DNA of 64,000 nucleotides from Verrucomicrobium sp. (GTDB taxonomy: Bacteria > Verrucomicrobiota > Verrucomicrobiia > Methylacidiphilales > GAS474), in NCBI GenBank assembly GCA_028283855.1, contig JAPWJX010000003.1, positions 62,001 to 126,000 on the forward strand. The letters run 5' to 3'. Under the pieces are notes generated by a model that saw only the letters and a program-made list of their open reading frames with translations, was not told where the DNA came from and searched no databases. Position 1 is the stretch's first letter, and every line of letters starts with the position of its first letter. The position numbers and the translations under genes were made by a program. This document shows, piece by piece, positions 852 to 60,536 of this stretch.

Positions 852-864
852 AATAGCCGAATTA
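852..864 (+). promoter_or_regulatory. AATAGCCGAATT element, copy 1
   Basis: AATAGCCGAATTA followed by TGGGTAC, ending 14 bases before ATG 878. It shares a 20-base stretch (one mismatch, T/C) with the copy at 12319. It sits in the 39-base gap between two divergent genes. No Shine-Dalgarno sequence is visible before ATG 878, so the element may be a -10-like promoter box or an operator. Confidence 0.6.
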
Positions 865-877
865 TGGGTACCGCGCC

Positions 878-2269
878 ATGCCCACGTTCCCGAGCACCCC
901 CTCCCTCTCCCCGCCCGATTGGGACGGCCTGGCCGCCCGCGGGCCGATGTGGGTCGACCGGCGCTCTCTTTTGGAAGCCGCCTTTGGCGGGCCCATCCCC
1001 GGCATCGCCCCCGACCCGGAGGAGCCGCCCCTGCGCCTTTTCTTCGCGCGCACGAAATTCGAGGCCGCCGAAAACGGCCTCCGCGCCATGGCGGAAGCCT
1101 TCGGCCCCCACCTGAAGCCCGGAGAGGAGTGGGACGCCGCCGCCCGCGCCGCCCAGGTGTGGAATTGGGGGCGGGACGCCCACCGCATTTCCTACGACCC
1201 CCATTTCGAGACGGATGACGCCTCCTTCGTCATCCCCCTCATGGGGCACGAGGGGATCCACGTCTGCCAGTTCGAGGACGCCCTGACCGACCTCCTCATC
1301 GCCCCCCGGTCCGCCGCCCTGACCTCGATCGGGGAAAACCCGTTCTGGGGCCACGGCCCGGCGTTGGAGCGGCTCATCCAGGACCGGGAAACCTTTGCCC
1401 AGCTCGCCGCCCGGCACCACATCCTGCAGCGCCTCCAGATGGAGGAAACGCAGAACCTCGCCGTCCCCCGCCTGCCCTATCTGGCCGATACCCACCTCTA
1501 CCTCCTCCTGGGCGTCGAGCTGGAAGCCCGCGTGGGGGAGCTGGTCTGCGGCATGTCCCACGGCGGCGCCTGGCCCCGGCTGCCGGAGAGCCGGGAGGAA
1601 CTGGAGCAGGTCTTCCAGGTCGTCCGCCTGCCCAGCGATCCGAAGAGCCTTTCCCACTGGCACGCCGATTTCTCCCGGAAGCGTTTTCACAACTGGATGG
1701 ACCCCGCCGCGGGCGTCGCCCGCAACGCGGCGCACGATCTTCAGGAAGCCAGCCGGGCCTTCCCGGCGGGCGCGGCGCGCGGGGCCTTCTTCGAGACGGT
1801 GCTGACGGAGGCCTACGCCTCCTTCGCCGAGCGGTGCGGCGATTACGGCATCCGCGCAAAGCTGGGCCTGGACCCCGGCACGCCCCACGGGCGGAAGGCG
1901 GGCCGCCAGCTCCGCTACGAGGTCGTGGCCCCGGACGACCGCCGGTGGACCGAGGCCCAGTGGGCCCGCAACGCGGCCCGGGCGGAGGGCGGCGCCCTCC
2001 CCGGCCTGCTCCGGCTGGCGGCGGAGAGCCAGAACGACCGCGCCTTCCCCATCCTCCTGGACGCCTGCCGGCGCCACCCCGCCTTCGACCCCGCCGCGCT
2101 GCGCGACCCGCTTTTGACGGAGGCCGCGCCCCTGCTCTCCCCGCGCAACCGGGCGCTCCTGAACGCCGCGGCGGCGCCGAAGCTCCCCGCCCACCTCCCC
2201 TTCCGCCGGGACGCGGGCAAAGAAAAACCCGGCCTGGGAATCCCAAGCCGGGTTTTAGAAAACCGTTAG
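878..2269 (+). CDS. Putative zinc metallopeptidase, HExxHxxQ family, paralogue 1
   Basis: 463 residues, family not recognised. It carries GHEGIHVCQFED (H124, E125, H128), an HExxH zinc-binding motif followed by xxQ, and a later ELEAR (E214, E216) that could supply the third metal ligand as in gluzincins. The N-terminus has a family signature LLEAAFGGPIPGIAPDP; the C-terminus has RCGDYGIRAKLGLDPGTPHG and a helical tail. No signal peptide or membrane segment is seen. Two tandem paralogues follow at 2585 and 3800 with the same order of motifs. HExxHxxQ recalls DUF4157-type domains, but I see no further match, so peptidase activity is inferred. The last codons overlap a strong terminator hairpin (2224-2256). 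Confidence 0.7.
   Translation: MPTFPSTPSLSPPDWDGLAARGPMWVDRRSLLEAAFGGPIPGIAPDPEEPPLRLFFARTKFEAAENGLRAMAEAFGPHLKPGEEWDAAARAAQVWNWGRDAHRISYDPHFETDDASFVIPLMGHEGIHVCQFEDALTDLLIAPRSAALTSIGENPFWGHGPALERLIQDRETFAQLAARHHILQRLQMEETQNLAVPRLPYLADTHLYLLLGVELEARVGELVCGMSHGGAWPRLPESREELEQVFQVVRLPSDPKSLSHWHADFSRKRFHNWMDPAAGVARNAAHDLQEASRAFPAGAARGAFFETVLTEAYASFAERCGDYGIRAKLGLDPGTPHGRKAGRQLRYEVVAPDDRRWTEAQWARNAARAEGGALPGLLRLAAESQNDRAFPILLDACRRHPAFDPAALRDPLLTEAAPLLSPRNRALLNAAAAPKLPAHLPFRRDAGKEKPGLGIPSRVLENR
2224..2256. terminator. Bidirectional intrinsic terminator for rpsU and the HExxH gene 1
   Basis: Perfect 10-bp stem AAAACCCGGC/GCCGGGTTTT around a 13-base loop that contains an extra GGG/CCC pair. On the minus strand the stem ends in TTTTTCT, a good rho-independent terminator for rpsU; on the plus strand it ends in TTTTAG. 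It lies inside the last 15 codons of the gene at 878-2269. Confidence 0.75.
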
Positions 2270-2283
2270 AGCGTCTTAAAAAA

Positions 2284-2490
2284 TTAAGGCACGGAAGGAC
2301 GGTTCAAGTTGAAGGTGCCCCAGAAGTTGAGGCGCGCCTCACGCTGCTTGCGGCGCTTCTTCTCCACGGGGTTCTCGAAGGTGCGGCGATTGCGCGCCTC
2401 ACGCAGGGTACCCTCGCGGTCGAGCTTCTTCTTCAGGCGGCGGAGCGCCTTATCGATGGATTCTCCTTTTTTGAGTCGAATTTCGGTCAT
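2284..2490 (-). CDS. rpsU: 30S ribosomal protein S21 (bS21)
   Basis: 68 residues, the usual length of bS21. The N-terminus MTEIRLKKGESIDKALRRLK and the very basic C-terminal part with FENPVEKKRRKQREAR are characteristic. It binds the small ribosomal subunit near the anti-Shine-Dalgarno end of 16S rRNA and helps initiation. An AGGTGA-type ribosome binding site precedes ATG 2490. It is transcribed towards the terminator at 2224-2256 and is divergent from the HExxH gene at 2585, with 94 bases between the starts. The presence of bS21 is notable because many genes in this window lack a clear Shine-Dalgarno sequence. Confidence 0.95.
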   Translation of the reverse strand: MTEIRLKKGESIDKALRRLKKKLDREGTLREARNRRTFENPVEKKRRKQREARLNFWGTFNLNRPSVP

Positions 2491-2566
2491 GAACAGTTCA
2501 CCTCGCTTTTCGTAATCCGGTTTTTAAGCCGGGCCGGACATTATTCCGGGTACCCCGGGTGGGGTC

Positions 2567-2579
2567 AATAGCCGAATTA
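2567..2579 (+). promoter_or_regulatory. AATAGCCGAATT element, copy 2
   Basis: AATAGCCGAATTA ending just before ATG 2585 (6 bases after GAATT). A GGGTACC lies about 20 bases upstream here instead of downstream as in copies 1 and 3. No Shine-Dalgarno sequence is present. It heads the two-gene HExxH block and possibly dnaE behind it. Confidence 0.6.
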
Positions 2580-2584
2580 TTAAG

Positions 2585-3796
2585 ATGCTAGCCCCTCTCG
2601 ACGCCATCCGCTCCCGGGGATGGACCACCCGGGAGGAGCTGCTCCGAATCGGCTTCGGCGGGCCGGTGCCGGGGATCGCGCCCGATCCCGACCCCTGCCC
2701 CATCCCCCTGGCCATTAACAAGATCGCCCCCGTCAGGCGTCCCAATGGGACCGAAGTCCTGGGGGGTGCCGCCCATGTCCGCGTGATGCCCTACGGCAAG
2801 GAGCGGAACCTCGTCACCCGGCTTTCCGCCCTGGGGCCGCTCGGGCCGCTTCTGACCTATAGCCAGGAGAACCCCAGCCTGATCGGCCACGAAGCCGTCC
2901 ACATCCTCCAGGCCCACGATATCGAGATCACCAACCTCGTCGCCCCCCACCGCCGGGCGCCGCACGTGGGGGCCTCCCTCCACCAGGGCTGCGGACCGCT
3001 CGACCCCATCCTGGCCTCGGAAGAGACTCCCCTGGAAACCTGGCGCCGCCGCCGCATGCTCCGCGGCGGGGTGGACAACGCCCGCCTGCGCCTGCCCCAC
3101 CTGGCCCAGGCGCAGCCCTATTACTTCAAAGGCATTGAGGTGGAGGCCCGGCTGGCGCAGCTCGTCTTCTCCCTGGCGCAGGAGGAGGGTTGGACGCGGC
3201 TGCCCCAAAGCCGGGCGGAAGCCGCCCCTCTCTTCGACCGCCTCCGTCCCGGCAACGCGGCGGCGCGCCTGCCCGCCGACCCCATCTCCCTTCAGGCGGC
3301 GGAAGAGCTGCGGGACGAGGTGGCCGCCCGCCTTTCCCCCGCCCAGCGGGAAGCCTTCTTTTCCCAAGCCCTGCCCGCCTTCTACGCCGACTTCCTGGAA
3401 CGGTGCGGCGACGGGCAGGCCCGTGAAAAGATGGGCCTCTCCCCCGGCATCCCCCAGGGCCGCCGCGCGGCGGAACGGATGATCTATGAGGGGACGCTGG
3501 CCCCCCGGCGCTTCCCCCGCTGGACCGGGGACCAGTGGCGGCAAGCCGCCGCCCTGGCCGAGCCGGAGACCCTCCCCGGCCTGGTTTCCCTGGCCGTGGA
3601 AACGGAACACCGCACCGCCCTGGCGCCCGTCCTGGACGCCTACCGGCAGCGGCCCGAGTTCTCCCCCGACGCCCTCCGCACCCTGCCGATCCGCTTCGGC
3701 GAGCGCCTCCTTTCCGCCGAAAGCCGCTCCCTCCTGCGCGAGGCCCGGCGTTCCGCCCCAGCCACCCCCGCGGCCGCCGCCGGCCGCACCCGCTGA
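2585..3796 (+). CDS. Putative zinc metallopeptidase, HExxHxxQ family, paralogue 2
   Basis: 403 residues, paralogous to its neighbours at 878 and 3800. It shows the N-terminal LLRIGFGGPVPGIAPDPDP signature, then IGHEAVHILQAHD (H102, E103, H106), NLVAPHRRAPHVGASL, the candidate third ligand IEVEARLAQLV (E185, E187), and RCGDGQAREKMGLSPGIPQG near residue 280. No signal peptide, so a cytoplasmic location or export by another route. It is followed by paralogue 3 after 3 bases, so the two are cotranscribed. The zinc site is intact in all three copies, which argues that the activity is conserved. The biological role is unknown. Confidence 0.7.
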   Translation: MLAPLDAIRSRGWTTREELLRIGFGGPVPGIAPDPDPCPIPLAINKIAPVRRPNGTEVLGGAAHVRVMPYGKERNLVTRLSALGPLGPLLTYSQENPSLIGHEAVHILQAHDIEITNLVAPHRRAPHVGASLHQGCGPLDPILASEETPLETWRRRRMLRGGVDNARLRLPHLAQAQPYYFKGIEVEARLAQLVFSLAQEEGWTRLPQSRAEAAPLFDRLRPGNAAARLPADPISLQAAEELRDEVAARLSPAQREAFFSQALPAFYADFLERCGDGQAREKMGLSPGIPQGRRAAERMIYEGTLAPRRFPRWTGDQWRQAAALAEPETLPGLVSLAVETEHRTALAPVLDAYRQRPEFSPDALRTLPIRFGERLLSAESRSLLREARRSAPATPAAAAGRTR

Positions 3797-3799
3797 CCC

Positions 3800-4945
3800 A
3801 TGACCCCGCTGCCCGATCTGAACACCCTCCTGGACCAAGGCCGCGCCACCCCCGGCGCGCTGCTGCGCCTGGCCTTCGGCGGGGACGTGCCCGGGCTCTC
3901 CTTCCGGGGGCAGGAAACCGTCGCCCTCTCCCCCTCCGCCGACCCCTCTCCCAAGACGGAAGCCATGTCCCTCTTCCTGGGGACGGAGGCCGATCCGGCC
4001 GTCCGCCACTTCGTCGTCCACACGCCGGAGCCGACCCGCATCCTCTTCCCCCCCGATTTCCGCAGCCGCCCCGCCGCCCGCCAGATCTCCACCCTGGGGC
4101 ACGAGGCGCTCCACGCCCTCCAGTTCGAGGACGAGCTGGCGGAGAACCTCGCCGCGCCCCACCGGCGCGCCCCGAACATCGGCGCCGCGTTCCGCTTCGG
4201 CCACGGCCCGGCGCTGGAAAAGATCCTGGCCGCGGAGGAGACGCCGGAAGAAACCGCCCTCCGCCACCGGCTGCTGGACCGGGTTTCCCACAACTCCCTC
4301 AGCGAATTCATCCGCATCCCCCACCTGCGCGACGCGACGCTCTACTACCTCCACGCGGCCGAGATCGAGGCCCGCTTCGGCGAGATCGCCTTCGACGCCG
4401 TGCGCCGGGGCGCCTGGCCCCGCCTGCCGCAGAACCGGGAAGAGGCCCAGGGCTTCGCCGCCCTCCTGGACGGCACCCGCGCCACCTCCGCCCCCGCGGC
4501 CTTCACCCTGGACAAGGCCGCCCTCTCCCCGGAAGCCGCCAAGGCCTGCGACGAGCTGGAGCGGGAAGTCGTCGCCAAGCTCTCTCCCGCCCAGCGCCGG
4601 GCCTTTTTCGCGGAAGCGGTCCCCGCCTTCGCCGCCGGGCTCCTCCAGCGGTGCGGGGAGCCGGAGGCGGCGCGCCGCTTCGGCCTGGAAGCGGGCGTCC
4701 CCCGGGGCCGCGAAATGGCGCGGCAGCTCCTCTTCGAGGCCCACCACGTCACCGGCCGCCACTGGAGCCCCCGGCAGTGGGAAAAAGCCCTCCGCCGGGC
4801 CGAGCCGGAAACCGTCCCCCACCTCCGCGCCCTGGCCGCCGAGGCCCAAAACGCCGCCGCCCTGAAGGGATTCTCCGCCGTCCGGTCCCGGGAACTTCCC
4901 CTTCCACCCTCCCGCTCGACACCCCTGGAAAAATCTCTAAGTTAG
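3800..4945 (+). CDS. Putative zinc metallopeptidase, HExxHxxQ family, paralogue 3
   Basis: 381 residues. It has LLRLAFGGDVPGL near the start, LGHEALHALQFEDEL (H101, E102, H105), NLAAPHRRAPNIGAAFRFG, the AEIEARFGEIAF segment (E188, E190), and RCGEPEAARRFGLEAGVPRG. Order and spacing match the two copies upstream; the N-terminal third is the most divergent part. It ends at TAG 4943-4945, only 4 bases before the GTG start of dnaE, so dnaE may depend partly on transcription from the element at 2567. No export signal. Family unrecognised; metallopeptidase activity is inferred from HExxH plus a downstream Glu. Confidence 0.7.
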   Translation: MTPLPDLNTLLDQGRATPGALLRLAFGGDVPGLSFRGQETVALSPSADPSPKTEAMSLFLGTEADPAVRHFVVHTPEPTRILFPPDFRSRPAARQISTLGHEALHALQFEDELAENLAAPHRRAPNIGAAFRFGHGPALEKILAAEETPEETALRHRLLDRVSHNSLSEFIRIPHLRDATLYYLHAAEIEARFGEIAFDAVRRGAWPRLPQNREEAQGFAALLDGTRATSAPAAFTLDKAALSPEAAKACDELEREVVAKLSPAQRRAFFAEAVPAFAAGLLQRCGEPEAARRFGLEAGVPRGREMARQLLFEAHHVTGRHWSPRQWEKALRRAEPETVPHLRALAAEAQNAAALKGFSAVRSRELPLPPSRSTPLEKSLS

Positions 4946-12280: not shown

Positions 12281-12307
12281 GGCCCTTTTGGGGAAGAAAA
12301 AGGGGCC
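12281..12307 (+). terminator. Hairpin terminator after the TPR gene
   Basis: GGCCCTTTT pairs with AAAAGGGGCC (one bulged base) around a loop of about 8 bases, starting directly after the TAG of the TPR gene. There is no long T-run behind it. It separates the TPR gene from the small-protein array. Confidence 0.5.
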
Positions 12308-12318
12308 GTGGGGAGGGA

Positions 12319-12331
12319 AATAGCCGAATTA
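12319..12331 (+). promoter_or_regulatory. AATAGCCGAATT element, copy 3
   Basis: AATAGCCGAATTA followed by CGGGTAC, preceded by GGAGGGA. It lies 30 bases before ATG 12361 and heads the four-gene small-protein array. It matches copy 1 over 20 bases except for one T/C difference. Confidence 0.6.
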
Positions 12332-12360: not shown

Positions 12361-12738
12361 ATGGCATCCCTCCTTCACACCCCTCAGGGCACGAAGTTGT
12401 ACGTCAAAGCCGCCTCCGGCGACGAACGGCTCGTGACCGACATTCAGAACCACACCGGCGAATCCCTCAAGCACTTGGGATGGGGACCGGTGGCCAGCAT
12501 CACCGAGCTGCGGCCGGGAGCTCCCGATGGCGCCAAGACGATCGTGAAAGGAGTCCATGCCGATTTCTATCCCCAGGTCTATCATTCCTCACAGTGGAGC
12601 TTTTCCAGCATCCGCTCCTCCGAGTCGGCCGCGGAGATCGCCGGCACCGTGTCGCGGGTCGGCTTCGAGCGGCCCAAGATAAAGACCCAGAGCGCCTTCA
12701 GCGCCTGGATGGACCGCACCTTCGGCGTGAGGGAATAA
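12361..12738 (+). CDS. Small protein of unknown family, array member A
   Basis: 125 residues, the most divergent of four tandem paralogues. Shared blocks are PVASITELRPGAPDGAKTIV (equivalent to the ExSxIxxLRExGPDxAxTVV block of the others), IRSSESAAEIAG and GFERPKIKTQSAFSAW. No signal peptide, cysteine pair or catalytic motif stands out; the protein looks like a small soluble alpha/beta domain. G+C is lower than in flanking genes. It is the first gene of a unidirectional array with spacings of 16, 13 and 3 bases, headed by the element at 12319. Function unknown. Confidence 0.65.
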   Translation: MASLLHTPQGTKLYVKAASGDERLVTDIQNHTGESLKHLGWGPVASITELRPGAPDGAKTIVKGVHADFYPQVYHSSQWSFSSIRSSESAAEIAGTVSRVGFERPKIKTQSAFSAWMDRTFGVRE

Positions 12739-12754
12739 AACCGCCCCATCCTAT

Positions 12755-13156
12755 ATGGCGCACGTTATCCATCACCATCTCGACAGTTATCACTGCGGCG
12801 AATCGGGCAAGTCCGTGGCCGTAGCCACCCCTTCCGGGGAGGCCTCGATCGCCCGCGACAGCCGCTACGTGACGGACAGCCTCATGATGCGTTCCGGTTG
12901 GCGCTATTCCCAGGAGGTTTCGCAGGTGGTAAAGCTGCGGGAAGAAGGCCCGGACCACGCCAAGACAGTGGTCTTCTCCACCGACTCCAGCGACTTCCAC
13001 TACAACAAACCGGAAAAGTCCCGCATCCGCTCCACCGAATCGGCGGAGTCCATCGTGCAGGCGCTGGTCGAGGCCGGATTTCGGCGCCCGCCCGTGAAAA
13101 CCCAATCGTTCCTCGGCGCCGTAAAGGACGAGATCGTCGACGCCTTCCGCCGCTAG
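12755..13156 (+). CDS. Small protein of unknown family, array member B
   Basis: 133 residues. The N-terminus is His-rich (MAHVIHHHLDSYHCGESGKS), followed by VAVATPSGEA, the block EVSQVVKLREEGPDHAKTVV and the most conserved block RIRSTESAESIVQALVEAGF ending RRPPVKTQSFLGAV. GKSV(A/S)V.TP.GEA is shared with member D. No export signal and no recognisable domain. The conserved RSTESAE and AGFxRPPV motifs suggest a compact binding fold. Cotranscribed with A, C and D. I do not recognise the family. Confidence 0.65.
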   Translation: MAHVIHHHLDSYHCGESGKSVAVATPSGEASIARDSRYVTDSLMMRSGWRYSQEVSQVVKLREEGPDHAKTVVFSTDSSDFHYNKPEKSRIRSTESAESIVQALVEAGFRRPPVKTQSFLGAVKDEIVDAFRR

Positions 13157-13169
13157 CCCACCCACTCAT

Positions 13170-13565
13170 ATGGCCCACATCGATCGCAGCACATACGAAG
13201 GCTGGGGCCTCATCTCCAGAGTGGGCGCCGGACACAGCACTTTTGTCAGCGTCGAAACCCCGGCCGGATACGCCAAGTCGGTGGCCCACGACATGTGGAT
13301 CGCGGGAATTAGAAACGGACACACCCATTCCGAGGTTTCGAAAATCCTTCAGCTCCGCGAAGAAGGGCCGGACCACGCCAAAACCGTGGTCACGCGCCTC
13401 GAAAACGGTTATCCCAAGCCGACAAAATCCCGCATCCGCTCCACCGAATCGGCGGAGGCGATCCTGCAAGCCCTGCAGGAAGCCGGTTTCAAGCGGCCGC
13501 CCGTTGTGCAACAGGGCCCCCTTGGCGCTTTCGTAGAACAGCTTCAGCAACACTTTCACCGCTAA
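13170..13565 (+). CDS. Small protein of unknown family, array member C
   Basis: 131 residues. It contains EVSKILQLREEGPDHAKTVV, SRIRSTESAEAILQALQEAG and FKRPPVVQQGPLGAFVEQLQ. Members B and C are close to each other in the central and C-terminal blocks and differ mostly in the first 50 residues, a pattern of duplication followed by N-terminal divergence. The C-terminal about 20 residues form a likely amphipathic helix (FVEQLQQHFHR). No known domain. Part of the same transcription unit as A, B and D. Confidence 0.65.
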   Translation: MAHIDRSTYEGWGLISRVGAGHSTFVSVETPAGYAKSVAHDMWIAGIRNGHTHSEVSKILQLREEGPDHAKTVVTRLENGYPKPTKSRIRSTESAEAILQALQEAGFKRPPVVQQGPLGAFVEQLQQHFHR

Positions 13566-13568
13566 CCC

Positions 13569-13961
13569 ATGCCTGAAATCCAACGTCACTCCCTCCATAA
13601 CTCCGGCTACGGCACCAGCGGCAAAAGCGTGAGCGTGCAGACTCCGGACGGCGAGGCGGCCCCGGTCGCCTTCAAAGGCTTCCGGCTGCCGGAACTCTGG
13701 CTCCACGGCCCCATTAACTACCACAACGAGGTCTCCAAGATCGTCACCTTGCGGGAAAAGGGGCCCGACCAGGCCCGGACGGTGGTGACCACGACGACGC
13801 GCGACCACGGCGAGAAGGGGAAATACCGGACCCGCTCCACCGAATCTGCGGAGGAGATCGTGAAAGCCCTGGCCGACGCCGGTTTCAAGCGGCCGCCGGT
13901 ACGGGAGCAAACGCGCCTCGGCGCGCTTGCGGAAAAGGTCCGCCAGCGTTTCGAGCGCTAA
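13569..13961 (+). CDS. Small protein of unknown family, array member D
   Basis: 130 residues. It contains GKSVSVQTPDGEAAPVAFKG, EVSKIVTLREKGPDQARTVV, RTRSTESAEEIVKALADAGF and KRPPVREQTRLGALAEKV. It starts 3 bases after the stop of C. Its TAA overlaps the TAG of the convergent secreted protein (13958), a tail-to-tail overlap of 4 bases, and is followed by a terminator hairpin. The strongest conservation across the array is RSTESAExI plus AGFxRPPV. Function unknown. Confidence 0.65.
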   Translation: MPEIQRHSLHNSGYGTSGKSVSVQTPDGEAAPVAFKGFRLPELWLHGPINYHNEVSKIVTLREKGPDQARTVVTTTTRDHGEKGKYRTRSTESAEEIVKALADAGFKRPPVREQTRLGALAEKVRQRFER

Positions 13962-14488
13962 AGGCCCAGCGCCTTTTTCACCGCCGCCTGCAAGGCGGCG
14001 TAGTCCCTCAGGTCGTCCCAGCGGGCGGCCTCCTGCCCGTCCTTCCCGTAGACGACGCAGCGGAGCTTCTCCGGCGTCTCCGCCCAGCCCAGGGAGCGGC
14101 TCAATTTCCCGTCGAAATCGGAGAAGGCTTCCAGGCTCCCGCGCGGATTCTCCGCGTTTCCGTTGGCCGCGTAGAAGGGGGCCAGGCGCTTGGCCTCGCC
14201 GTTCAGGTTTTCCCGCATCTCCCCGCGCACGATCGGAGGCAGCGCCCCGGCGATCGAGCCGCGCAGGTCGACGACGATGAAAAGCTGGAAGTCCGGCCGC
14301 CCGCGATACGCGTCCAGGACCCGCCCGGCCTCCCGCGTCGCCTTCTGGGTGGCGGGAGAGGAGCTTAAGACGACGCCGACCCGCCCGGACGCGTTGAGAA
14401 CGGTCTTCCGGTTGTCGACGTCGGTCCCCTCAACCGGCGCGGCGTGGAGCGGCAGGGCAAGGAGAAGAAAGAGAAGGAGCAGCCGCAT
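13958..14488 (-). CDS. Exported protein, possible thioredoxin-like fold
   Basis: 176 residues from ATG 14488. The N-terminus MRLLLLFLLLALPLHAAP is a clear signal peptide with an AxA-type cleavage site, so I prefer this start to the ATG at 14524, which would add MPLPGGFCQFEA in front of it. The mature part has RVGVVLSSSPATQKATREAG, QLFIVVDLRGSI and LRCVVYGKDGQEAARWDDLR, a strand order reminiscent of redoxin-like exported proteins such as YtfJ, but there is no CxxC motif. It lies 4 bases behind the glycosyltransferase gene and is probably in one operon with it and metF-like upstream. Function unknown. Confidence 0.6.
   Translation of the reverse strand: MRLLLLFLLLALPLHAAPVEGTDVDNRKTVLNASGRVGVVLSSSPATQKATREAGRVLDAYRGRPDFQLFIVVDLRGSIAGALPPIVRGEMRENLNGEAKRLAPFYAANGNAENPRGSLEAFSDFDGKLSRSLGWAETPEKLRCVVYGKDGQEAARWDDLRDYAALQAAVKKALGL
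13960..13978 (+). terminator. Terminator of the small-protein array
   Basis: AAAGGC (13960-13965), loop CCAGC, GCCTTT (13971-13976) running into TTC. It begins in the stop codon of array member D and lies inside the 3' end of the convergent minus-strand gene. Confidence 0.5.
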
Positions 14489-14492
14489 GGCC

Positions 14493-15659
14493 TCAAACTG
14501 GCAGAAGCCGCCGGGCAGCGGCAAGCACCGCCTCCGGCTCCAGACGGCCGATCTCCGCCTCCCGCAGCACCTCCCGCCGCTCCGTCCAGGGAGCCCAGCG
14601 GGCGGGATCTTCCCGGCTGTAGAGGCCGACGACCGGCACGCCCGCGGCGGCGGCCAGGTGGAGGGGGCCGGAGTCGTTCCCGACGAAAAGGCCGCAGCGG
14701 GCCAGGAAAGCCGCCGTCACCTCCAGCGGCATCCGGCCCGCCAGGTTCGCCGCGTTGGCCCCGCAGGCGCGGGCGATTTCCTCCCCCGCCTCCCGGTCGG
14801 CGGCGGAACCGATGACGGCGATATGGACGCGGCGGAACCGGCGCGCCAGGGAGGCGAAGCGCGCGGCGGGCCAAACCTTTCCCATATGGCCCGCGCCGAT
14901 GCCGAGGCCGACGACCGGACGGTCCTCCGCCCAGCCAAGGGAGCGCCAGACGTCGGCGGCCTCCCGCGCGGTGTTCGGCGTGATCCACGGCTCCAGCGGG
15001 CCGGGCGCGGCGGCGGGCTGGCCCAGGGCCTCGAAGAGGGCGGCCTGCCGCTCCACCTCGTGCCCGGCCCGGGGGACGGGGACCACCCGGTCCAGGACCA
15101 GGCCGGAACGGAAGTAGCCCAGCAGGGGCTTCACCGGCATGCCCAAAAGACGCCGCCCGTGGCTGCCCGCCAGGACGACCTGCGCCGCCGCCTGGACGAC
15201 GTCCTGGTTCGTCCGCACGGAGAGGCCCAGGTCGGGCGGCAGGCCGGGGAATTCCCGCTCCCGCAGCGCGGCAGCCTCCCGCCACCAGGCGGGGCACCCC
15301 GCGGTGGCCTGCCGCCACGCGGGACCGGCCAGCGCCTGAAAATCGAACGGGGCGACGGCGTCGACGTGGCGGCAGCCCCGCGCGAACTCGGCCACATGGG
15401 GCGCGGCGGCCAGGACGATGCGGGCCCCCGGATAAAGGCCGCGCAAGCGGCGCAGGAAAGGGCCGGTCAGGACCATGTCGCCGATGTCGGCCAATTGCGC
15501 GACGAGGATCTGGCGCGGCACGGCGGCGGCGCCCTTCCCCGCCCAATGCCGGGCGCGGCGGGCCGCTTCCAGCCGGGGACGGAGGTGGAGGAGGGGGAAG
15601 CAGGCCGCTTCCCGCCCGGCGCGCCGGAGGACGCGCCCCAAAAGGGCGGCGCCGCTCAT
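14493..15659 (-). CDS. Glycosyltransferase family 9 (ADP-heptose:LPS heptosyltransferase-like)
   Basis: 388 residues. It would transfer a heptose or related sugar onto an LPS core at the inner membrane. GT9 features: ILVAQLADIGDMVLTGPFLR at the N-terminal Rossmann half, GLGIGAGHMGKVWPAARF for the donor site, and LFVGNDSGPLHLAAAAGVPV in the C-terminal half. About 45 basic residues precede the fold. The start ATG 15659 overlaps the stop of the upstream methyltransferase gene (ATGA). A second GT9 gene lies at 62152. Acceptor and sugar cannot be told from the sequence. Confidence 0.85.
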   Translation of the reverse strand: MSGAALLGRVLRRAGREAACFPLLHLRPRLEAARRARHWAGKGAAAVPRQILVAQLADIGDMVLTGPFLRRLRGLYPGARIVLAAAPHVAEFARGCRHVDAVAPFDFQALAGPAWRQATAGCPAWWREAAALREREFPGLPPDLGLSVRTNQDVVQAAAQVVLAGSHGRRLLGMPVKPLLGYFRSGLVLDRVVPVPRAGHEVERQAALFEALGQPAAAPGPLEPWITPNTAREAADVWRSLGWAEDRPVVGLGIGAGHMGKVWPAARFASLARRFRRVHIAVIGSAADREAGEEIARACGANAANLAGRMPLEVTAAFLARCGLFVGNDSGPLHLAAAAGVPVVGLYSREDPARWAPWTERREVLREAEIGRLEPEAVLAAARRLLPV

Positions 15660-56646: not shown

Positions 56647-57504
56647 CTATTTTTCCCGGGCCGGGCCGCCGCCCGGGGCCGCGCCTCCGGCTTCCCCCGC
56701 GCGGCGGAAGCCGATGCCGCGCTCCTGAAGGGCCTGGGCCACGGTGCGGCCCAGGGCCGTCTCCACGTAATCGACGCGGCGGTAAAGCTCGTCGAGCAGC
56801 TTTCTTTCCCGGCGGCTCTCCTCCCATTTTCCGAAGGCGGGACGGCCCAGGGCGAAGGTCAGGGAGGGGACGCCGCGCCGCTCCAGCTCCAGCTTGAGGG
56901 AGCTGCCGGGCGTCAGGGCATCGTCCAAATGGTGGAGGCCGCCGATCATGAGGACGCCGTGGCCCGCCCGCGCCTCGGCGGCGATCCGCTCCGCCATGAA
57001 GGCGTTGCGGGGGGCGACTCCTTCCAGCACCCGCTTTTCCTGCCGGGACATGGCCAAGTAGTCGGGGGAGGCGGGGACGTCGCACAGGACGGTACGCAGG
57101 CCGCGGCGCTCGGCCTCCTCGGCCAGGCCGCGCAGCTGGTAGCGCCACGACCCGCGGGCCAGCGCCTCCCCCTCCTCCTGGAGGAACAGGCGGCGCTCCT
57201 CCGCCCCGCGTTCCTGGCGGCGGCGGTCGAGCCGCCCCCGCCACCCGGCGCGCGGCGCGGAGGCGGCGGGGACGGGGTAAAGGGCCTCCAAGTAAAAGTC
57301 GATGACGGCGCGCCAGTCCTCCGGCTTCCGCGCGGAGCGGAGGTAGGCTTGCAGGGGTTCCTGGAGATTGTTCGGCTTCTCCAGCATGAGGGTGTCGTAG
57401 CCGCGCGCGGCGGCTTCCTGGAGGATCTTCCGCTCGGCCAGGTCGTGCAGGCCTTCGGCGTGGTTTTCCCCTACGAGGAGGACGGGGTGGGGGCCGGCAT
57501 TCAT
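56647..57504 (-). CDS. ChaN/TIKI-superfamily protein, paralogue 4
   Basis: 285 residues. Family motifs: VLLVGENHAEGLHDLAERKI (GExH), YDTLMLEKPNNLQEPLQAYL, RNAFMAERIAAEARAGHGVL and MIGGLHHLDDALTPGSSLKL (GxxHL). The GExH and GxxH motifs place it with the ChaN/TraB/EreA-like TIKI superfamily, whose members bind haem or metal or act as hydrolases. A Pro/Gly-rich tail follows. ATG 57504 overlaps the stop of paralogue 3 (ATGA). No signal peptide. The precise activity is unknown. Confidence 0.7.
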   Translation of the reverse strand: MNAGPHPVLLVGENHAEGLHDLAERKILQEAAARGYDTLMLEKPNNLQEPLQAYLRSARKPEDWRAVIDFYLEALYPVPAASAPRAGWRGRLDRRRQERGAEERRLFLQEEGEALARGSWRYQLRGLAEEAERRGLRTVLCDVPASPDYLAMSRQEKRVLEGVAPRNAFMAERIAAEARAGHGVLMIGGLHHLDDALTPGSSLKLELERRGVPSLTFALGRPAFGKWEESRRERKLLDELYRRVDYVETALGRTVAQALQERGIGFRRAGEAGGAAPGGGPAREK

Positions 57505-58241
57505 CGGACGCGCTCTTCCTGGCTGGGAGCAGGGGCCGCGCCGCCCCGGCGGAATTCGGCGCGGAGGAGCGCGGCGATCTCCTTCCCCGTCTCGACCAGG
57601 TGGTCGACGGGCTTCAGCCGGGCGGCGGGAATGCCCGCATGGATCTCCGGGCGGTCGCCGTCGATCGCCAGCTCGAAACTTTCCGAACGCAGGCCCAGGC
57701 GGCCCAGCTCGATCTTCAGCGAGCTGCCGGGGGACTCCGTCTCCGTCAAATGGGAGGCGCCGCAGATGGCGACGGCGCCGCCGCCCGCCTCCGCGATCCG
57801 CTCCGCCATGAAGGCGTTGCGCTGGGGCAGGGTCTCCACGGTCCGCTGCTCCTGGATGATCCGCTTGCGCTCCGCCGCGGGCAGGTCGTTGAACCGGACG
57901 CGGAAGCCCTCGTCCGCGCCGCGCTCCAGCCGGAGGCGGAGCGCCCGGTTCGTGTCGGCGGCGATCATCTGGTCGAGCAGCGCCTCCCGCCTTTCCCGGG
58001 GGAGCGGCGGCGCCCCGGCCCCGCGCGTCTTGTCCAAGGAGGCGGACGTGAAGCGGCGGTAGGCCGCGTCGGAACGGCTGGAAGCCAGGTAGGCATCGAG
58101 GTCGGGCTGGAGGTCGCACGGGCGCTCCAGGAAAAGGGTGTCGTAGCCCAGGCCGCGCAGTTCCCGCAGGGCGGCGATCTCCGCCGTCAAGTGCTCCGGG
58201 CGGTGGTGGTGCTCCCCCACGCAGACGACGGGCAGGATCAT
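57501..58241 (-). CDS. ChaN/TIKI-superfamily protein, paralogue 3
   Basis: 246 residues. VVCVGEHHHRPEHLTAEIAA (GExH), YDTLFLERPCDLQPDLDAYL, VRFNDLPAAERKRI, RNAFMAERIAEAGGGAVAIC and GASHLTETESPGSSLKIEL (GxxHL). The middle block NAFMAERIAE is shared with paralogue 4. No signal peptide. Coupled by 4-base overlaps with paralogue 2 upstream and paralogue 4 downstream, making a three-gene operon headed by the element at 59091. Confidence 0.7.
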   Translation of the reverse strand: MILPVVCVGEHHHRPEHLTAEIAALRELRGLGYDTLFLERPCDLQPDLDAYLASSRSDAAYRRFTSASLDKTRGAGAPPLPRERREALLDQMIAADTNRALRLRLERGADEGFRVRFNDLPAAERKRIIQEQRTVETLPQRNAFMAERIAEAGGGAVAICGASHLTETESPGSSLKIELGRLGLRSESFELAIDGDRPEIHAGIPAARLKPVDHLVETGKEIAALLRAEFRRGGAAPAPSQEERVR

Positions 58242-59083
58242 CGCCCGCCCTCCCGGGCCAGGATGCGGCCCACCTCCGCCCCATCGGAGACGACGTGGTC
58301 CACGGGGCTGGGAGCCCGGCCCAGCCGCCGGTAAACCCGCTCGATGGGCCGCTCCCCGTCGAGGGCCAGGTCAAAGCTGCGGCTGGGCACGCCCAGGCGG
58401 TCCAGCTCTTTCTTGAGGGACGTGCCGGGCACCACCTCGCTCAAATGCGCGGCGCCGTGGACGGCCACCACGCCGTGGCCCGCGCGGGCCTCCTCCGCCA
58501 GCACGGCGGCCGAGGCGGCGTTGCGGCGGCCCAAATCCCGGTAGAGGCGCCCGCCCTCCTCGATGGCGGCGAGGTTCCGCGCGGACAAATCGTCGAACCG
58601 GAGGCGGTAACCCAGCTCCGCCGCGCCGTTCAAGAGAATGCGGGTATTCCTCTCCCCCGGCTCTTCCATCTGCCGCGCGATTTCCTTTTCCCGCCCCTCG
58701 GCGGAGGCGCGGCGAAAAGCGTCGCCATAAAGGGCCGCGCTGCCTTCATGGAGAAAATCCCGGTAATCCTGCTCCGTGCGGCGGGAGGCGGCATAGCGCC
58801 GGGCGGCCGGTTCCCGCTCCGGCGGCAGCTCCACCGCCAGCGTGTCGTAACCCAAAGGGCGAAGGGCCCGCAACGCCTCCACCTCGATATGCGCGTGCTC
58901 TTCCCGAGTATGCAATTCTCCCAGGCAAACGACGGGCTGGAGCGTCCGGTCCAGTTCGGGCAGGGGCTTCCGCCACAGGCCAGGCCGGAGCCAGGCCGGC
59001 CGGGCGTCCCACAGAGTAAAGACGACGCCGCGCAAAGCCGCCCCAGGGGAGGCTTTTAAAAGAGAGGCGGCGCTAAACTCCAT
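58238..59083 (-). CDS. ChaN/TIKI-superfamily protein, paralogue 2
   Basis: 281 residues from ATG 59083. An N-terminal extension of about 48 residues (WDARPAWLRPGLWRKPLPEL) precedes the core: VVCLGELHTREEHAHIEVEA (GExH), YDTLAVELPPEREPAARRYA, LRFDDLSARNLAAI, RNAASAAVLAEEARAGHGVV and HGAAHLSEVVPGTSLKKEL (GxxHL). A TTG at 59092 is in frame but lies within the element, so ATG 59083 is preferred. First gene of the three-gene operon. Function unknown. Confidence 0.7.
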   Translation of the reverse strand: MEFSAASLLKASPGAALRGVVFTLWDARPAWLRPGLWRKPLPELDRTLQPVVCLGELHTREEHAHIEVEALRALRPLGYDTLAVELPPEREPAARRYAASRRTEQDYRDFLHEGSAALYGDAFRRASAEGREKEIARQMEEPGERNTRILLNGAAELGYRLRFDDLSARNLAAIEEGGRLYRDLGRRNAASAAVLAEEARAGHGVVAVHGAAHLSEVVPGTSLKKELDRLGVPSRSFDLALDGERPIERVYRRLGRAPSPVDHVVSDGAEVGRILAREGGR

Positions 59084-59090
59084 GCCGTAC

Positions 59091-59102
59091 AATTCGGCTA
59101 TT
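59091..59102 (-). promoter_or_regulatory. AATAGCCGAATT element, copy 4
   Basis: On the minus strand GGAGGAAATAGCCGAATT, with 7 bases between GAATT and ATG 59083. It heads the operon of ChaN/TIKI-like paralogues 2, 3 and 4. No Shine-Dalgarno sequence lies between it and the start. Confidence 0.6.
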
Positions 59103-59164
59103 TCCTCCAGCCGTTTTCTTCAGGTCCGTTGATTTTTTGATCTCCTGGGTTACGGTACGTCCCT

Positions 59165-59785
59165 ATGCACAAGTCTCTCCTCCTCCTGACGTTTTCCCTC
59201 TTTCTCCTTGGCACCGGCAAGGCGGCCGTGGCCGTCGGCAGCCCCGCGCCGGGATTCACCCTGAACGACCTGGCGGGGAAGCCCGTCCAGCTGTCCGATT
59301 ACGCCGGGAAAATCGTCGTCCTGGAATGGACGAACGTCGACTGCCCCTTCGTGAAGAAGCACTACGCCAGCGGGAACATCCCCGTCCTGCAGGAAAAGTA
59401 CACCGCCCAGGGCGTGGTCTGGCTCTCCGTCTGCTCCTCCGCGCCGGGGAAGGAAGGCAACCATCCGACCCAGGAGATCGAGGCGACGCGCGCCGCCTGG
59501 CACGCCGCCAGCACCGACTACCTGGTCGACGCGGACGGGATCATCGGCCGCCTCTACGGGGCCAAGACGACGCCCCACTTCTTCATCGTCGATAAGCAGG
59601 GGGTGGTCCGCTACACCGGGGGGATCGACAGCATCGCCTCCGCGAACCCGGACGACATCCGCAAGGCGGAGCCCTACGTGGCCAAGGCCCTCGACGCCCT
59701 CCTGGCGGGCAAGCCGGTGGCGACCCCGGTGACGACGCCCTACGGCTGCTCGGTCAAATACGGGGCTCTCGTCCCGGTTCCTTAG
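59165..59785 (+). CDS. Exported thioredoxin-fold (redoxin/TlpA-like) protein
   Basis: 206 residues with a signal peptide (MHKSLLLLTFSLFLLGTGKA). The redoxin domain has GSPAPGFTLNDLAGKPVQLS, LEWTNVDCPFVKKHYASGNI with a single Cys (CPFVKKHY type), TTPHFFIVDKQGVVRYTGGI, and a C-terminal TPVTTPYGCSVKYG with a second Cys. This (N/D)CPFVK(R/K)HY group differs from CxxC thioredoxins and probably acts as a periplasmic peroxidase or reductase. It lies inside the ChaN/TIKI array on the opposite strand; its 3' end overlaps paralogue 1 by 32 bases. Confidence 0.85.
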   Translation: MHKSLLLLTFSLFLLGTGKAAVAVGSPAPGFTLNDLAGKPVQLSDYAGKIVVLEWTNVDCPFVKKHYASGNIPVLQEKYTAQGVVWLSVCSSAPGKEGNHPTQEIEATRAAWHAASTDYLVDADGIIGRLYGAKTTPHFFIVDKQGVVRYTGGIDSIASANPDDIRKAEPYVAKALDALLAGKPVATPVTTPYGCSVKYGALVPVP

Positions 59786-60518
59786 ACTGGACCGCGCCCG
59801 CGCCCGAACGCGTCGCGCGCAGGAAGGCTTCGATCTCCGGCGCGCCGAAGGCGATCCGGTCGACCGAGGCGGCGAGCCGCTCTTCCGGCACCCGCATCTC
59901 CCGGGCCGGGGAGCGGCCGTCGACGGCCAGGGCGAAGGAGCGGTGCGGCACCTCGTGCCGGTCCAGTTCCTCCTGGAGGGAGGGGCATTCCTCTTCCGAA
60001 ATCAGATGGGCGCTCCCGGCCACCAGGATCACCTGGCGGCCCTGGTCTTCCGTGATCTCCGCCAGGTAATCGGCCATGAATTGGTTGCGCAGGGCGAGGT
60101 CGGCCTTCGTCTCCACCTCCGGCAGCCGGTTGAGGGCGGCCACCGGCAGGTCGATACAGCGGACGGCGTAGCCCAGCTCGGCGGCGCGGTCCCAGAGCTG
60201 CTTGGTCAAAACGGCCTGCGGCTCGGTCCGCAGCTCCTCGATCCACTCCTGCCGCTGGGCGGGGGAAACCTCCGGCGCGTCCTCCCCCAGCCCGGCCAGT
60301 TCCGTATCGAGCCGGGCTTCCAGGAAGGCGCGGTAGGCCGCCGCGTCGCGCGGGGAGGCCAGGTAAGCGTGGACGGCGGGCTCCAGATCGCACGGGTATT
60401 CGACGGCCAGCGTGTCGTAGCCCAAGGCCTGCGCGCGGCGGAGAGTCTCCCCCTCCATCTGGAGGTGGGCGAAATCGGCGTGATGTTCCCCTAACAGGAC
60501 GACGGGAGCCGGGGCCAT
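59754..60518 (-). CDS. ChaN/TIKI-superfamily protein, paralogue 1
   Basis: 254 residues. VVLLGEHHADFAHLQMEGET (GExH), YDTLAVEYPCDLEPAVHAYL, VRCIDLPVAALNRLPEVETK, RNQFMADYLAEITEDQGRQV and LVAGSAHLISEEECPSLQEE (GxxHL). No signal peptide. It is separate from the three-gene operon of paralogues 2-4 and has its own element at 60525. The 3' end overlaps the convergent redoxin gene. It starts 13 bases after the murJ stop, so it could also be read from murJ. Confidence 0.7.
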   Translation of the reverse strand: MAPAPVVLLGEHHADFAHLQMEGETLRRAQALGYDTLAVEYPCDLEPAVHAYLASPRDAAAYRAFLEARLDTELAGLGEDAPEVSPAQRQEWIEELRTEPQAVLTKQLWDRAAELGYAVRCIDLPVAALNRLPEVETKADLALRNQFMADYLAEITEDQGRQVILVAGSAHLISEEECPSLQEELDRHEVPHRSFALAVDGRSPAREMRVPEERLAASVDRIAFGAPEIEAFLRATRSGAGAVQSKEPGREPRI

Positions 60519-60524
60519 AGAAAG

Positions 60525-60536
60525 AATTCGGCTATT
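60525..60536 (-). promoter_or_regulatory. AATAGCCGAATT element, copy 5
   Basis: On the minus strand GGAAATAGCCGAATT with 6 bases before ATG 60518. The TAG inside the element is the stop codon of murJ (60532-60534). It heads ChaN/TIKI-like paralogue 1. Confidence 0.6.

Follow-up and report, generated by a model that had tools for sequence, protein, structure and literature searches.

The strongest result of the analysis is that a four-gene array of orphan proteins is part of a species-specific gene set, the mark of which is a promoter-like element of 13 bases. The array spans positions 12361-13961 of the window, the 64,000-nucleotide stretch of a Verrucomicrobium sp. contig that was analysed. 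The element, AATAGCCGAATTA, lies at 12319-12331 on the + strand, 42 bases upstream of the start codon (ATG) of gene A, and an A/T-rich patch, AAGAAAAA, is found 18-25 bases before the element (12294-12301, +). We infer promoter function for the element and, with it, a role for the patch. Within the array the element precedes gene A only; the best matches at genes B, C and D reach 7 of 13 positions, which is the chance level. The four genes would therefore most simply form a single transcription unit, driven by a single copy of a dedicated promoter.

The array is genuine and its members are paralogous. Genes A (12361-12738, 125 aa), B (12755-13156, 133 aa), C (13170-13565, 131 aa) and D (13569-13961, 130 aa) are consecutive + strand ORFs separated by 16, 13 and 3 bases, as the first-pass annotation had it when it described a one-direction array with gaps of 3-16 bases. 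A search with copy B recovers the other three at E values of 1.5e-9 to 4.8e-27, far past chance. Identity among B, C and D is 45-48%, and A, the copy that diverged furthest, shares 25-33% with the other three. The four-copy alignment has 24 invariant columns, which fall within the conserved blocks named at first reading. Two of the named blocks, RSTESAE and AGFxRPPV, stand in B, C and D and fail in A, where they have diverged to RSSESAA and VGFERPKI. The G+C content of the array genes (0.60-0.65) is lower than that of their surroundings, again as first described; the mean for window genes is 0.690 (sd 0.039). With dS close to 1 between copies, nothing is claimed about selection. The array had also been credited with its own terminator, and this is not supported: the stem at 13955-13972 is no better than shuffled sequence (fold z = -0.65), is one of two such sites, against 2.3 expected from shuffles, and overlaps the stop of a convergent gene (13958-14524, -).

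The array proteins are an orphan family in everything searched. Their own genome (2.56 Mb, 9 contigs) holds only these four copies, and no relative was found in 59 related genomes (two of them congeners) or in the genome contigs, viral contigs, phages and plasmids searched. No array protein passed the curated cut-offs of Pfam (best E 0.011) or NCBIfam (best E 0.017), PHROGs gave nothing convincing (best E 0.084), PADLOC gave no match, and the PDB sequences gave no convincing match. The weak Pfam, NCBIfam and PHROG profile matches are inconsistent between copies. The initial failure to recognise a family thus extends to all these collections, and the profile searches (Pfam, NCBIfam, PHROG, PADLOC) assign the proteins to no characterised family; relatives may exist in metagenomes. 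These searches also bear on the idea that the array is a defence cassette, or cargo derived from a phage or carried by a plasmid. Lower G+C and orphan proteins would suit such an origin, but there is no match in PHROGs, PADLOC, viral contigs, phages or plasmids, and the element is spread over many contigs of the genome, which makes it very improbable.

Structure prediction, proposed in the first-pass annotation, was run on B and D singly, with a four-row alignment as shallow input. The two models, confident given such limited input, have the same topology at pLDDT 83-84 (B, pLDDT 83.7 and pTM 0.76; D, pLDDT 82.9 and pTM 0.77): six main antiparallel strands are followed by two C-terminal helices. 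A helix starts in the RSTESAE block, a short strand lies at RPPV, and the C-terminal helix comes after it. Foldseek searches of the PDB and viral libraries gave no match with E < 0.001 among the families listed; lipocalin and Hsp70 rows in the output were taken as noise. VIA-align returned weak rows from the PH superfold (Spt16, Rtt106, PTB, EVH1), the best having a Z of 4.8 over 65 residues at 2.8 A in the first list and of 3.8 over 58 residues at 3.0 A in the second. The modelled fold is at most weakly PH-like, and this is taken as a lead only.

Two readings of the array had been put forward at the outset, parts of one complex or alternative versions of one component. The second is the more natural, since the four copies align over their full length and the B and D models share a topology; the best reading is of a single small component whose versions are diversifying. 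In the proposed scheme this would be a soluble protein, duplicated in place and then diversified, consisting of an antiparallel sheet with C-terminal helices and perhaps serving as a PH-like interaction domain. The single direction, tight gaps and single upstream element would also fit four different subunits of one complex kept together in one operon. That arrangement is unlikely, as one domain spans all four proteins, so that tandem duplication suffices, and the regulon holds three further tandem paralog groups (HExxH and TIKI in the window; ankyrin at another locus). The link of the array to the HExxH and ChaN/TIKI-like genes is possession of the same element. As dozens of other genes carry it too, a complex of these proteins alone is not implied.

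The shared upstream element noted at first reading does exist, extends far past the window, and marks a genome-wide regulon. In the window, further copies are found at 852-864 (+), 26 bases before an HExxH-type gene (878-2269); at 2567-2579 (+), 18 bases before a second (2585-3796); and, with one mismatch each, at 59090-59102 (-) and 60524-60536 (-), before ChaN/TIKI-like genes starting at 59083 and 60518. The genome contains 47 exact copies of AATAGCCGAATTA; when one mismatch is allowed the number rises to 76, and a reversed-pattern control gives none. In 39 other genomes, the same genus included, the element occurs at 0-6 copies, like their own controls; AATAGCCGAATTA-N6-ATG gave single, chance-like hits among the matches listed from public genomes, and the element appears in none of the papers searched. 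An ORF begins with ATG 18-22 bases downstream in 44 of the 76 cases, compared to 2.8% of random positions. Positions -24 to -19 upstream of the element are A/T-rich across 71 aligned copies. This pattern suggests that the element is the promoter of a regulon, apparently specific to one species, which would comprise some 70-100 genes, most of them orphans. It could instead act in RNA or as an operator, that is in translation control or as a repressor or activator site. Only 5-9 bases separate it from most start codons, as would be expected of a translation element, and no -35 hexamer was found at the standard position. This role is quite unlikely, however: the core fits a sigma-28-like -10 box, the DNA upstream is A/T-rich, and roughly one copy in three stands at a variable distance from the ATG (42 bases at gene A, for example), which suits a promoter better.

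The gene set consists largely of unfamiliar proteins. At least 50 of 67 products have no Pfam match (E 0.01), and those matched include four ChaN/TIKI, three ankyrin, three hexapeptide, two adenosine deaminase and one Ham1/ITPase protein; NT5C is also among the recognisable members. Several occur in tandem. Three HExxH paralogs start at 878, 2585 and 3800 (878-4945, +) with the motifs GHEGIH, GHEAVH and GHEALH; the first two carry the element and the third does not, and the first has no Pfam match. A further relative with its own element lies elsewhere in the genome (L037:342-1487, -). Four ChaN/TIKI-like genes lie in tandem at about 56650-60518 (-), the first two with the element, and two more TIKI-like genes with the element were seen at other loci (L067, L075). 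An ankyrin triplet (L060:825-3060, -) and an adenosine deaminase pair (L041:2658-5143, +) are also tandem, each gene having its own copy.

Several properties of the products bear on where they may act. Against controls drawn from the stretches around element copies and the window, a biased sample obtained with a home-made gene caller, N-terminal hydrophobic stretches are found in 3 of 68 regulon products and 69 of 356 controls. Arg makes up 12.3% of the last 30 residues in the regulon and 8.2% in controls (p=3e-8; length-matched p=7e-4), and Arg content outside that stretch does not differ; B, C and D end in RR, HR and ER. FxRP occurs as a C-terminal motif somewhat more often in the regulon (5/68) than in controls (3/356), gene A being among the five. 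Positively charged C-termini are common in type IV substrates (PMC8714903). Random G+C-rich gene ends can also give basic, Arg-rich C-termini, so export is treated as hypothetical.

A type IV secretion locus with a TrbC/VirB2 pilin, a TraL-like protein and a TraC/VirB4-type ATPase lies on contig C1, which is not the contig of the array; Pfam PF03135 itself gave no hit. None of the type IV structural genes has a copy of the element, and VirB4 relatives are found in 13 other genomes of the order, all lacking it. Beside the locus is a long run of unknown genes on the - strand (L231:223-17780; C1:214-232 kb), which includes proteins of 807 and 944 aa with no Pfam match and two genes that bear the element. 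On the same contig a T2SSE-type ATPase is split into two overlapping ORFs in different frames (L230:497-2543; C1:200.5-202.5 kb), a frameshift that is either real or from assembly.

An outward-facing regulon, whose products would be delivered to another cell, possibly via this type IV system, is tentatively preferred as slightly likelier than its rivals. Close behind it, and still a serious contender, stands the view that the same promoter and regulon serve an internal programme (development, stress, dormancy or nucleotide stress), the array encoding four interchangeable intracellular adaptors. Alternative sigma factors usually drive internal programmes such as development, stress and dormancy, which counts for this view, as do the hypothetical nature of the export signal and the several recognisable members that are soluble enzymes (ITPase, adenosine deaminases, NT5C). 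The ITPase and adenosine deaminases could be ordinary internal enzymes. On the other hand, the large share of members with no Pfam match stands against a purely internal role, tandem paralog families and ankyrin proteins are commoner in secreted repertoires, and congeners lack the regulon, which would be odd for a core programme.

The factor that reads the element was sought among the sigma genes. The sigma-28 consensus is TAAAGTTT-n11-GCCGATAA (PMC2859248). Nearly all element copies contain GCCGAATT(A), which matches the -10 octamer or comes close to it, a resemblance of the core only; the -35 sequence TAAAGTTT is absent at n11, and the aligned copies show no base preference above 0.25 bit at -15 to -8. 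The most likely reader of the element would be an alternative sigma factor that belongs to the FliA/SigB/WhiG group but is not flagellar sigma-28. If its spacing resembles that of sigma-28 promoters, most members would have transcripts starting at or near the start codon, and the array transcript would start about 20 bases upstream of gene A. Two candidate sigma genes lack a clear ortholog among congeners. One (C3:14744-15451) lies in a region of about 51% G+C. The surrounding stretch (L107 and L232; C3:1-20000) has a G+C content of 51-52%, against about 70% for the genome as a whole, contains no gene that passes the codon model, and is probably acquired DNA. The other (C1:203761-204540) is adjacent to, and divergent from, the type IV locus. 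A genome from another family of the order (G010) has a sigma gene at the same place beside its type IV locus; no comparable motif was found in the 0.38 Mb of it that was read.

The fullest version of the proposal combines a new promoter class and a regulon of about 70-100 genes arising since the split from congeners, a secretion-linked sigma factor, transcripts starting at the start codon, and an array that is a diversifying effector cassette of a new family; taken together, these parts are rather unlikely all to hold. By marking about 70 unknown genes, the element places an otherwise unreadable orphan array in a set that can be tested. Should the products prove to be delivered to other cells, it would be a ready list of candidate effectors. 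Its absence from the same genus shows how fast a new promoter class can spread over a genome.

The proposal can be compared with three known systems. The PH-like superfold (PH, PTB, EVH1 and the FACT middle domain) has an antiparallel sheet followed by a helix, as do the array models, and such chains top both VIA-align lists; the models differ in an extra C-terminal helix, there is no sequence signal, and Z is at most 4.8.

Sigma-28 (FliA/WhiG) promoters have a GCCGA core at the -10 position, like the element, and their regulons are likewise scattered genes under one element. The genome carries an FlhA-type gene, then a FliA-type sigma gene (on contig C5), and related sigma genes are present. 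In contrast to the element, one flagellin gene of the same genome has TAAAGTCT-n12-GCCGAT about 160 bases upstream, complete with a -35; flagellar sigma-28 as the simple answer was rejected on this ground. The element is also absent from relatives, and the recognised regulon members include no flagellar genes. Flagellar sigma-28 specificity is widely conserved, and as relatives lack the element a different factor is likelier.

Type IV secretion bacteria such as Legionella and Bartonella have effector regulons. Control of these by a 13-base promoter-like element is not known, and in the present genome, where delivery is a hypothesis, no coupling protein was identified and there is no known host. 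Features in common are many orphan genes that lie dispersed yet are jointly controlled, along with ankyrin proteins, basic C-termini, a scarcity of hydrophobic N-termini and a type IV locus.
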